A stretch of DNA of 34,905 nucleotides from a virus: the IMG/VR virus record IMGVR_UViG_3300045242_000311, positions 1-34,905 of that record, one strand, 5' to 3'. A model generated the notes under the pieces. The model saw only the letters and a list, made by a program, of their open reading frames with translations, did not search any database and had not been told where the DNA came from. The position numbers and the translations under genes are program-made. Positions 1 to 3,819 of the stretch are shown here, piece after piece; positions within the stretch are counted from its first letter, which is position 1, and every line of letters begins with the position of its first letter.

Positions 1-570
1 CTAACTCTTGCGGCTGCGTCTCCAGAGAGTTGTAGCAGACGGGCCTTTATCGCCGATCTTCGGACCTGGCTTTTTTGCGCCCGCCTTCTTCATGCCGTTG
101 CGGATCCGCTCCGCGATCAGGCTGCGTTCAAACTCTGCGATGGCGGCCAGCAGTGTGAAGACCAGCTTTCCGACTGGCGTCGACGTATCGATCTGCTCGG
201 TGAGAGAGATGAACTCGAGTTTCTTCTGCTGGAAAGTTTCCAGCACCTTGAGCATGTGCTGAGTCGATCGAAAGAAGCGATCGAATTTCCAAACGACGAC
301 GGCCTTGAAGTTCTGCACCTTCGCGTTCACGGCCGCCATCAGCTCATCGAGATGCGGCCTGGATTCCTTCGCTCCGCTCCAGCCCTCGTCGATGTACTCG
401 TGCACGATCACCCAGCCGCGCATTTTGCAAAACTCCCGCAGTGGCTGCAGCTGCGCCTCGGGATCCTGCCCGTGGAACGGATGATCCTCGCCGGCATGCT
501 GCTCTCCCTCGAGCTTCCCGCACTTTCGGCAGCGGTCCTTCGAGACGCGAGCGTAGAGAACAACGTTCAT
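1..570 (-). CDS. Serine recombinase (resolvase/invertase family)
   Basis: A 189-residue small serine recombinase that would cut and rejoin DNA through a covalent phosphoserine link. The start MNVVLYARVS holds the nucleophile Ser10. KFDRFFRS (about residues 95-102) supplies the conserved D-R and following Arg, and the long E-helix is seen around AEFERSLIAERIR (145-157). Two oddities stand out. About 25 residues are inserted directly after the catalytic serine, with Cys14, Cys17, His25, His30 and His33, which could bind zinc. The C-terminal helix-turn-helix is very short: only a recognition-helix-like SATTLWRR remains before the stop at the window edge. The start at 570 overlaps the stop of the upstream membrane gene (ATGA). 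It could be the phage integrase, a DNA invertase or a resolvase. The family is certain, the role is not. Confidence 0.93.
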   Translation of the reverse strand: MNVVLYARVSKDRCRKCGKLEGEQHAGEDHPFHGQDPEAQLQPLREFCKMRGWVIVHEYIDEGWSGAKESRPHLDELMAAVNAKVQNFKAVVVWKFDRFFRSTQHMLKVLETFQQKKLEFISLTEQIDTSTPVGKLVFTLLAAIAEFERSLIAERIRNGMKKAGAKKPGPKIGDKGPSATTLWRRSRKS

Positions 571-713
571 GAGTGGAAGAAATAGGCGATGGCCACAGCG
601 AGGAGCACACCCAGCGGAATCAACCAACCGAATCGGGGCTCGCCGCCAAAGGGATCACCCGGTATCTTTCCCCGATACGGAGGAGGCGGCGGTGGTATCG
701 GCTTCAATCCCAT
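567..713 (-). CDS. Small proline-rich single-pass membrane protein
   Basis: A 48-residue reading frame starting MGLKPIPPPPPPYRG and ending with a hydrophobic helix (about residues 30-46, WLIPLGVLLAVAIAYFF). The polyproline run followed by one membrane segment suggests a small membrane-anchored protein. Its stop codon overlaps the ATG of the recombinase by 4 bases, so the two are probably translationally coupled. A 16-bp inverted repeat and a 17-bp repeated motif lie just upstream. Function is unknown. Support comes from the exact overlap and the membrane helix, not from a recognised family. Confidence 0.6.
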   Translation of the reverse strand: MGLKPIPPPPPPYRGKIPGDPFGGEPRFGWLIPLGVLLAVAIAYFFHS

Positions 714-821: not shown

Positions 822-1004
822 CTATCGTTTCGGCACTTGGGCCATGCGGGTCAACGGCAAAACCTCATCCCTCGCTGCTCTGCGTCGCTCAATCGCAGCG
901 AAGATGCGAATCTCCCGGTCATGTTCAGTGACACGCCACTTCGCTAGCCACCAGCCGGCGGCACCGATCGTGTAAACCTTCTCGGGTTGGGTGGGAAAAA
1001 GCAT
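822..1004 (-). CDS. Hypothetical protein, last gene of the accessory operon
   Basis: A 60-residue protein starting MLFPTQPEKVYTIGAAGWW, with a basic, charged C-terminal half (AAIERRRAARDEVLPL). It follows the Acb2-like gene with a 9-base gap and is the last gene of a three-gene minus-strand operon (1495 to 822). I do not recognise the family, and no membrane helix, signal peptide or metal motif is visible. Position next to a possible anti-defence gene makes it worth noting, but no function can be assigned. Confidence 0.55.
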   Translation of the reverse strand: MLFPTQPEKVYTIGAAGWWLAKWRVTEHDREIRIFAAIERRRAARDEVLPLTRMAQVPKR

Positions 1005-1013
1005 TGCAGCACA

Positions 1014-1199
1014 TCACAGCCTTGCTCTCACGAAGCAGTCTTTCGCCTCGAGTAGTTTGCGCAGCCCGGCCGTTTTCTCCGCGGAGTCCGGAAGTTCCTG
1101 GTCGAGCTTTTCAGCGAGCTCGCCAATCGGCTTCGAGATCTGCTGTAGCTCCGCCGGCAGATGCGCGAATGCGAAGAACTTCATGATCGGTCCATTCAT
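1014..1199 (-). CDS. Acb2/Tad1-hairpin-like small protein (candidate anti-CBASS sponge)
   Basis: A 61-residue protein. The visible pattern is an aromatic N-terminus (KFFAFAHLP), LQQISKPIGELAEKL, then LPDSAEKTAGLRKLLEAKD and VRARL. This is the helix-LP..E...LRKLLEAKD-helix plan of small phage proteins that I associate with the Acb2/Tad1 hairpin group. Acb2 itself is known to sequester the cyclic oligonucleotides used by CBASS defence. The family link is from memory of the motif and no search was possible. The start at 1199 was chosen because its ATG overlaps the stop of the preceding gene (ATGA), giving translational coupling; a later ATG at 1184 is also possible. The upstream partner is often found with it in phages. 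Family likely, sponge activity inferred. Confidence 0.6.
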   Translation of the reverse strand: MNGPIMKFFAFAHLPAELQQISKPIGELAEKLDQELPDSAEKTAGLRKLLEAKDCFVRARL

Positions 1200-1495
1200 T
1201 TCGAGAGGTCCACGATGTCGAGATCCCAATGGCGCACTCCACCGTGACCCCAAACGATTTCCTTTCCTGCAAAGTTGTCTAGCAACACGACGTGCTTGCC
1301 GGCGCCGTTGATCGGCGACGGCTCGCCTGGCGTGAGTTTCGTCGAGAGATCGATCAGCATCCGGTCCGCGCGATCGTAAAGCGCCTTCGCGCGCGCCTTC
1401 GTTTTTTGCCAGCGCTTCACCTTCGCAGCGATCGACGCCTGCTTGCGCGTGAGTCTGACGGCCTTCTCTTCGGCCAATGTGGCAGCGGTACTCAT
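1196..1495 (-). CDS. Phage hypothetical protein, partner of the Acb2-like gene
   Basis: A 99-residue protein with a basic helical N-terminal half (RLTRKQASIAAKVKRWQKTKARAKALYDRAD) and a beta-rich C-terminal half containing KHVVLLDNFAGKEIVWGHGG. The latter resembles a conserved phage motif of the form v-D-N-F-a-x-K-n-x-v-w found in small proteins near Acb2-like genes. The start has a GGAAAAG sequence directly upstream, and the stop overlaps the next start by 4 bases. It is the first gene of the 1495-822 operon, preceded by the second copy of the 17-bp leader repeat. Function unknown. Confidence 0.75.
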   Translation of the reverse strand: MSTAATLAEEKAVRLTRKQASIAAKVKRWQKTKARAKALYDRADRMLIDLSTKLTPGEPSPINGAGKHVVLLDNFAGKEIVWGHGGVRHWDLDIVDLSK

Positions 1496-2070: not shown

Positions 2071-2199
2071 TTACTCCGGAGCTCGCGGCCGCGGAGGGTT
2101 CACTCCGTAAGGATCCTGCCGCATCAATGTAGCGCGGTAAGGACAGCGCACGCTGCCGGCGCGATGCCCCCACGATCCACAATTTGCGCAGTTGACCAT
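2071..2199 (-). CDS. Small zinc-knuckle protein
   Basis: A 42-residue frame with CANCGSWGH and a fourth ligand in VRCP, giving a C-X2-C-X4-H-X6-C zinc-knuckle-like pattern at residues 4-19. It is followed by a short basic and proline-rich tail (NPPRPRAPE). The start is 2 bases after the stop of the upstream membrane gene, indicating coupling. Zinc-knuckle peptides of this size are common in phages, and single-stranded nucleic acid binding is the usual guess. Function is not known here. Confidence 0.65.
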   Translation of the reverse strand: MVNCANCGSWGHRAGSVRCPYRATLMRQDPYGVNPPRPRAPE

Positions 2200-2448: not shown

Positions 2449-2733
2449 CGCCGGGGGATGCTTTTCCGCATCTGCGGCATTGCGTTTCAGCTTGTGCCAG
2501 ATCGCAATAATGGCGCGACGCACTCGATAGGACCAAGAGCCGATCACCCGTCCCCTCAGGGTCAGACTCTTCGGAAGCAGCGTGACGCTCACGCGCGGAA
2601 GCTTGTTGGTTCCTAGTCGGACGGTGACGGACTCCACGCCGCGGAGTCGTTGGCCATCAATAACAATGCTGCTGCCGAACGGCGCCGCTTTCGAATCAAT
2701 GGCGATATCGTGAAAGTCGTCGGTCGTGGTCAT
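2434..2733 (-). CDS. Phage hypothetical protein
   Basis: A 99-residue protein beginning MTTTDDFHDIAIDSKAAPFG, with a beta-rich first half (SSIVIDGQRLRGVESVTVRLG, PRVSVTLLPKSLTLRG) and a basic helical second half (YRVRRAIIAIWHKLKR). It ends PPAISQK, the same last four residues as the upstream holin-like protein, because that segment is part of a local duplication. The start has AAGGTG upstream. The pattern resembles small conserved phage proteins near lysis genes. Function unknown. Confidence 0.7.
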   Translation of the reverse strand: MTTTDDFHDIAIDSKAAPFGSSIVIDGQRLRGVESVTVRLGTNKLPRVSVTLLPKSLTLRGRVIGSWSYRVRRAIIAIWHKLKRNAADAEKHPPAISQK

Positions 2734-2785
2734 GGAATCACCTTGAGTTCAGAATTTTGGAGGCGGAAGTTTATTTCTGGGAGAT
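2731..2785 (-). repeat. Duplicated leader, copy B
   Basis: Partner of 2394-2448. It spans the last codons of the holin-like gene (ISQK-stop), the gap, AAAATTCTGAACTC, AAGGTGATTC and the ATG at 2733. The two copies differ at only a minority of positions, indicating tandem duplication or copying of a gene junction. Confidence 0.7.
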
Positions 2786-3319
2786 CGACGGTGCCTGGGC
2801 GAGCAGCTCCGTCTTGCGATCGCTGCCGGCGGAGCTGCCGAAATAGTAAGCGATGATCGAAGTCCACGCCGTACCCAAGCTGCCCAGCAACAGCAGCATC
2901 GTGTCATGGCTGGCATCCGGCACCGTGTGAGTGAGCATGTACCAGAGCACGCCGAAGAATCCCAAGGTGACCAGGCCCGCAAGCATCGCCGGCACTTTGT
3001 CTTTCAGCGTCATCTCGCGCTGCCGTGCGTTAGCGCGATCGGATGCGGCCGTGGCGGCGAGCTCCTCAGCGTCTTTGTAGCCCAGCTCTGCCATCTGCGC
3101 CTGAAACTGCTGCTCAGCCTGGATCAGCGCCTGGCGTTGCGCGGGATCCGCGAGTGCCGTGGCGATCGCGTTCGAGATCCCATCGGCCGTCGCTGGAACT
3201 TTGTCGACGCCGATCGCCTTTCCCACCAGCGATGCAGCGATCGTGCCAACCGGACCGCCCAGCGAAGCCGCGGCAGAGATGAAAGGAAAGCTCTTCTTCA
3301 AAACGTCGGTGAAGCTCAT
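2771..3319 (-). CDS. Holin-like protein (3-TM GTA-type family)
   Basis: A 182-residue membrane protein. The N-terminal part contains a glycine/alanine-rich hydrophobic stretch (FPFISAAASLGGPVGTIAAS). A charged helical middle carries LIQAEQQFQAQMAELG and DRANARQREM. Two strong membrane helices follow (VPAMLAGLVTLGFFGVLWYM and MLLLLGSLGTAWTSIIAYYFG), ending YYFGSSAGSDRKTELL. The DRANAR motif and the YYFGSS-x-GS ending are typical of the holin of 3 TMs family known from gene transfer agents and prophages. Its ATG overlaps the endolysin stop by 4 bases, a classic lysis-cassette arrangement. It probably forms the membrane lesion that lets the endolysin reach the wall. Confidence 0.82.
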   Translation of the reverse strand: MSFTDVLKKSFPFISAAASLGGPVGTIAASLVGKAIGVDKVPATADGISNAIATALADPAQRQALIQAEQQFQAQMAELGYKDAEELAATAASDRANARQREMTLKDKVPAMLAGLVTLGFFGVLWYMLTHTVPDASHDTMLLLLGSLGTAWTSIIAYYFGSSAGSDRKTELLAQAPSISQK

Positions 3320-3819
3320 GAGGTTGCTCCTTGATTTGCAGACGCTGGATTCGCAGCCGGTGACGACAGGCTACGGTAATCGTTGTAAATTCCAATCACG
3401 TGCTCAGCCCTGGTCTTGTCCGTGCTCCACGTCATCGAGACTTGCGTCACATAGACGGCAGCATCCGGAGCTTCGAGCGCGGCCTTATAGTGCGGGTAGG
3501 CGTTCGAGAGCCGCTGCAGCGTGGCCAGCCGATCGGCGAAACAGCTTGCCCAGTCCGGATATTCCACAAATGCGGCCGAGATTTCCTTCCAGTCAGCATG
3601 CCCCGGCGTGCCTTCGTGCGTGGGCAAGTTCACCGTCTTGTAAATCGGGTGGGCATGCTGCTTCATGCCGAACAGGTTGTTTTCTTCGCGCGCGAGCTGG
3701 CTGTGTCCCCACGAAGATTCGAGAGCCGCTTCGCACGCAGCCATCTGCGGGAAGGGATGGTTCGCCTTCGCAGCCTGCGCGGCCGCGGAGTCTAGAAATT
3801 GTCGCTGTGCGTCATTCAT
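3316..3819 (-). CDS. Endolysin, glucosaminidase (FlgJ-like) family
   Basis: A 167-residue peptidoglycan hydrolase. The motif ACEAALESSWGHSQLAREEN followed by NLFGMK is the hallmark of the mannosyl-glycoprotein endo-beta-N-acetylglucosaminidase/FlgJ family, with the catalytic Glu at about residue 34. YVTQVSMTWSTD (residues 123-134) matches the conserved C-terminal motif of the fold. There is no signal peptide, so release should depend on the adjacent holin-like gene, whose start it overlaps. It would cleave the glycan strand at the end of infection. The start at 3819 has AAGGAATTC upstream and faces the divergent small gene starting at 3839. Confidence 0.92.
   Translation of the reverse strand: MNDAQRQFLDSAAAQAAKANHPFPQMAACEAALESSWGHSQLAREENNLFGMKQHAHPIYKTVNLPTHEGTPGHADWKEISAAFVEYPDWASCFADRLATLQRLSNAYPHYKAALEAPDAAVYVTQVSMTWSTDKTRAEHVIGIYNDYRSLSSPAANPASANQGATS

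Follow-up and report, generated by a model that had tools for sequence, protein, structure and literature searches.

A 61-residue phage protein remotely related to the Acb2/Tad1 hairpin and its possible role as a nucleotide-signal sponge

The window, the whole stretch of DNA analysed here, is a 34.9-kb linear IMG/VR record of a tailed phage, and it raises a question about a short reading frame at 1014-1199 on the minus strand, the translation of which is MNGPIMKFFAFAHLPAELQQISKPIGELAEKLDQELPDSAEKTAGLRKLLEAKDCFVRARL: does this 61-residue product belong with the Acb2 and Tad1 hairpin proteins, small proteins that mop up alarm signals of bacteria, and might it, like a sponge, sequester a nucleotide signal of host immunity? 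The original prediction had put it forward as a candidate Acb2/Tad1 hairpin on the grounds of an aromatic-HLP start and LPDSAEKTAGLRKLLEAKD, both of which are indeed read in the translation of this frame. We have examined its family, remote homology, predicted fold and pocket positions as well as the genes that accompany its relatives.

The gene, its family and its neighbourhood

The minus-strand late block of the window contains terminase, portal, major head protein, tape measure and tail fibre J-like genes; an endolysin gene (3316-3819) lies at its far end, and beyond this come ORFs of 99, 61 and 60 residues, and then a serine recombinase. The ATG of the hairpin gene overlaps the TGA of the upstream 99-residue ORF (1196-1495, minus strand) in an ATGA at 1199-1196, an overlap by which the two genes are probably translationally coupled. 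The 60-residue ORF (822-1004, minus strand) begins 9 bases past the hairpin stop, and neither of these two ORFs has a family match. The serine recombinase (1-627, minus strand), directly past the accessory cluster and at the contig edge, carries a resolvase N-terminal domain and matches invertase/integrase PHROGs.

Relatives of the 61-residue protein are numerous. In tblastn searches, 358 phage records cover at least 80% of it, and relatives were also found in 544 confirmed IMG/VR stretches and 196 bacterial-genome stretches; together with a match to PHROG 1761 (E 4.5e-31) these counts leave no room for a chance ORF. PHROG 5120 matches as well (E 4e-23), and PHROG assigns a function to neither family. 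The phages concerned infect Vibrio, Erwinia, Acinetobacter, Mycobacterium, Gordonia, Brevibacterium, Ruegeria and others, and none of the listed phage relatives has an assigned function. Since terminase, portal, head morphogenesis, spanin, endolysin and integrase genes are the recurrent neighbours in the bacterial loci, these look mainly like prophages. Among 65 sequences, F9, H13, L14, P15, L18, S22, A29, E41, K42 and G45 are invariant, as are R47, K48, L50, E51, A52, K53, D54, C55, V57 and R58.

The two ORFs next to the gene, on the other hand, are not shared with this family. The original prediction had called the 99-residue partner conserved, a description that does not hold: both neighbouring ORFs are real, but the longer has a single IMG/VR relative (L179, 79% identity) and none in the phage collection, the 60-residue ORF has no IMG/VR relative, and among 80 hairpin loci none carries either of them. 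L179 itself is without a hairpin gene; in the slot after its 99-residue relative, where the hairpin gene would be, there is a small zinc-knuckle-like ORF similar to a 42-residue ORF of the window (2071-2199, minus strand; CX2CX4HX5C pattern). A conserved three-gene operon of the 99-, 61- and 60-residue ORFs was therefore rejected. Because the window neighbours do not travel with it, the hairpin gene looks like an exchangeable accessory gene.

Two repeated elements were also seen in this region. A 14-bp palindrome, AGCCGCTAGCGGCT, occurs in two perfect copies (1574-1587 and 1988-2001) on either side of a lone plus-strand gene at 1600-1989, a count equalled in 0 of 100 shuffles; GTGCTAGCAC-type palindromes adjoin the related gene in L179, and the palindromes around the plus-strand gene are possibly operator sites. 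In addition, GTTAACTSACTAG at 720-732 and 1521-1533 stands just upstream of the minus-strand 48-residue and 99-residue ORFs and brackets the 99/61/60-residue cluster; its match count was equalled in 4 of 100 shuffles, and it is absent from L179.

Remote homology and predicted fold

The Pfam model of the hairpin family, PF24729 (Acb2_Tad1_hairpin; curated cut-off 27 bits), gave no match to the 61-residue protein at E up to 1 and none in the whole record, and its best score against 19 relatives was only E 0.12, while T4 Acb2 scored 71 bits with the same model and a Bacillus phage Tad1 34 bits. PHROG 1454, however, matches the 61-residue protein with an E-value of 5.1e-5, which refers to the whole library, and it is likewise matched by all nine PF24729 members tried; the Bacillus phage Tad1 and T4 Acb2 match it as well. 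The profile-profile comparison that had been proposed as a check bore the relationship out: HHalign, of which each E-value refers to one comparison, aligned the hairpin family with the canonical alignment at a probability of 94-96% over about residues 18-52, and the score of 44.5 compares with a maximum of 17.75 among 200 column shuffles and with 10.2 for a reversed alignment. Thus, the original assignment stands as remote superfamily homology, but not as membership of PF24729.

A search of PDB sequences with the protein and with the family profile returned no Acb2 or Tad1 chain; a weak match to a chain named 'Gp22' is probably due to chance. The entry 9PTQ ('Acb2 homolog 43') suggests an existing survey of homologues, which may already cover the present family.

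AlphaFold2, run with 65 sequences, predicts helices at residues 4-9, 16-35 and 40-60 (pLDDT 95.1), that is, a short N-terminal helix followed by two long antiparallel helices. This is the layout described for the Acb2 protomer (PMC10419184), and a canonical hairpin modelled likewise took the same form. Of the matches in a viral structure library, the first six, at 44-49% identity, include known members of the family itself (e.g. from Dickeya phage JA13), and after the family's own members most of the named matches are Acb2/Tad1 hairpin proteins: rank 7 has a probability of 0.99 and a TM score of 0.70, and ranks 10, 11 and 12 have probabilities of 0.96, 0.87 and 0.93. The E-values of these hairpin matches are weak (0.09 to 1), as is expected for helical proteins of 60 residues. 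A Foldseek search of the PDB with the model found nothing useful, and neither Acb2 nor Tad1; this says little, because the search is nearly blind even to a canonical hairpin used as a control, for which T4 Acb2 came up with no better than E 6.7 and probability 0.25.

Could the profile similarity then be a convergence of short helical hairpins that share neither ancestry nor function? Such proteins are prone to false matches, and the PDB sequence and fold searches both came back without Acb2 or Tad1. Nevertheless, the real alignment scores far above its shuffled and reversed versions, the aligned stretch spans most of both long helices as well as the connecting loop, and the fold search would hardly have recovered even a true canonical hairpin, so that we regard convergence as highly improbable. 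The link to the Acb2/Tad1 hairpin holds, if only remotely, and the 61-residue family is very probably homologous to that superfamily.

Resemblance to known hairpins and the pocket positions

One close resemblance is to the stand-alone hairpins of PF24729 and PHROG 1454 (the type found in actinophages and Paenibacillus phages; PDB 9PTQ), which share with the present protein their size, gene style and three-helix layout as well as the turn LP-x-x-x-EK-(S/T/A)-x-x-x-x-K-L-x-E-A; they differ in that their REKALAITKLEEAMFWANAAIAR is replaced here by (P/A)EKSAGLRKLLEAKDCFVRA, and in falling into another PHROG. To Acb2 (T4 Vs.4, PDB 7UQ2; Pseudomonas phage p26, PDB 8H2J and 8IXZ) the protein is related remotely through the hairpin profile and by helix layout, but it has 61 residues against about 90. 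With Tad1 (Thoeris anti-defence 1), it shares the C-terminal helical hairpin, homologous by way of PHROG 1454 and PF24729, yet it lacks the N-terminal beta-sheet domain, no strand being predicted.

In T4 Acb2, the substitution Y8A disrupts binding and F82 stacks on the ligand (PMC12657218, PMC12657230), and T68M reduces affinity (PMC12657230). Thr68 is the Thr of AKTKLKEA; canonical members have a nearly invariant Thr here, in ITKLEEA, whereas the present family has Arg47 at this position in all 73 sequences. Indeed, the invariant Arg25 and Arg43 and the nearly invariant Thr50 of the canonical hairpins correspond to Ser22, Ala/Pro40 and Arg47, respectively. Of the two replaced arginines, both invariant in 45 canonical members, one belongs to the xREKSLA turn and the other lies close to where the first long helix begins. 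Other features appear to be kept. Near the Tyr8 position, as judged by eye from a short alignment with the N-termini of T4 and p26, the protein has F8, and of 73 sequences of the family 51 have Y and 14 have F; moreover, Arg58, 11 residues past the Thr68 position, aligns with an Arg in both T4 and p26 Acb2. We take K26 and R67 of p26 Acb2 to be ligand contacts, which makes them a lead.

By the original prediction, the fold should show a helical hairpin with the nucleotide-pocket residues of Acb2; the hairpin is predicted with high confidence, but several of the pocket positions are replaced. That the fold is kept while these positions are rewritten argues for a different ligand preference. It also bears on whether the protein is simply an ordinary Acb2 of known ligand range (cyclic di- and trinucleotides) that has diverged too far for the Pfam model. 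The same fold, the remote homology, the aromatic residue and the retained Arg58 would all suit such a protein, but it would have to tolerate an Arg where the T4 substitution lowers affinity (PMC12657230) and the loss of both canonical arginines, and we therefore consider it quite unlikely.

Companion genes and possible function

PF13876 is the family of the Acb4 sponge (PMC11722364). It has no match in the 61-residue protein or its record, and neither PF13876 nor the Tad2-like PF11195 was found in the ORFs beside the window's copy; no sponge family at all was matched by the neighbouring ORFs in the libraries used. Among relatives, the picture is different. Although these families are unrelated to the hairpin, several of its relatives adjoin them: one PF13876 and one Tad2-like protein were found among 101 immediate neighbours in bacterial loci, and in scans of whole records 7 of 87 with a hairpin also had PF13876, six times within 375 bp of the hairpin (214, 375, 363, 363, 227 and 175 bp) and once 3.4 kb away in a 197-kb genome. 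PF11195 is present in 6 of 82 hairpin records, in four of them within 536 bp (41, 21, 536 and 402 bp) and in the other two tens of kilobases off. The Tad2-like ORF of L080 starts at 3193, just after the end of the hairpin ORF at 3189, and that of L069 overlaps its hairpin ORF by four bases. Three more adjacent sponge pairs occur in bacterial loci (L182, L224 and L233); all hairpin-sponge pairs found within the flanks are on the same strand. With two near-identical PF13876 records counted once, the combined proximity has a p of ~1e-8 under uniform gene placement, a value that overstates the true significance because accessory genes cluster. The association is not general to phages with a hairpin: an Acb4-like gene is present in 0 of 50 canonical PF24729-type records (a set biased to actinophages), against the 7 of 87 given above. 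A PF24729 gene, the base rate of which is not established, occurs in 0 of 50 hairpin records.

The two kinds of protein are also linked by a common fusion, as PF21825 is attached C-terminally both to hairpin proteins (L036, residues 92-150; L069, residues 99-157) and to Acb4-like proteins (L022, residues 196-254; L074, residues 366-424). This domain may serve as an accessory to anti-defence proteins in general. PF21825 is crAss001_48-related, and a related stretch is found in Stenotrophomonas phage ORFs annotated as MazG-like. In another fusion, in L065 (about 2605-3183, plus strand), the hairpin follows an N-terminal domain of the 'KFKKKPVIIEA ...' type, which has no match in Pfam; L062 is grouped with it, and the top match in the viral library is named an anti-TRAP domain protein.

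Sponge genes are not the only company that the hairpin keeps. At least 8 of the 101 genes directly beside the hairpin in bacterial loci match a single Rz-like spanin PHROG, endolysin and head genes are found among the rest, and the window's own copy lies downstream of an endolysin gene too. That no sponge gene stands beside this copy, and that lysis genes turn up in the neighbourhood at least as often, counts against a sponge. One could thus suppose that the hairpin, though sharing ancestry with Acb2/Tad1, is an oligomerisation module that, without binding any immune signal, multimerises itself or its fused domains in some other late function such as lysis timing or packaging; its fusion to several unrelated domains and the pocket positions not conserved with Acb2 would agree with this. 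However, the third helix has mostly charged invariant residues, which are kept even in stand-alone 61-residue copies, beyond what a bare helix bundle needs, some relatives have adjacent sponge genes and share PF21825 with Acb4-like proteins, and the region beside the lysis genes is a usual site for accessory genes as well. We hold such a module to be unlikely, if less so than an ordinary Acb2.

Taken as a sponge, the protein would be a phage accessory (anti-defence) protein that assembles into a small helical oligomer; this oligomer would bind and sequester a nucleotide-derived signal, either a cyclic oligonucleotide of the CBASS type or an ADP-ribose signal of the Thoeris type, such that the host effector would not be triggered. 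Oligomerisation, ligand binding and an anti-defence effect are what homology, fold and sponge neighbours most likely point to. A nucleotide-signal sponge in the broad sense, with the ordinary Acb2 range included, appears likely; that the protein represents a divergent branch of the Acb2/Tad1 superfamily sequestering such an immune signal is somewhat less certain, though we still favour it. A more specific proposal can be put forward only tentatively, as being rather doubtful in its entirety: the family might form a third, unrecognised and very widespread Acb2/Tad1 branch, with an Arg-based pocket for a signal poorly covered by Acb2 and Tad1, and be deployed in cassettes of several sponges, next to Acb4-like or Tad2-like proteins.

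Common as the family is in phages and prophages, its listed annotated relatives are without a function. Should it prove to act as a sponge, an anti-defence gene could be predicted in hundreds of phages, and the invariant Arg47, which stands where Acb2 has its Thr, would point to a ligand beyond the known Acb2 range. In that case, the operons with Tad2-like or Acb4-like partners would represent phages that stack sponges against several alarm signals at once.
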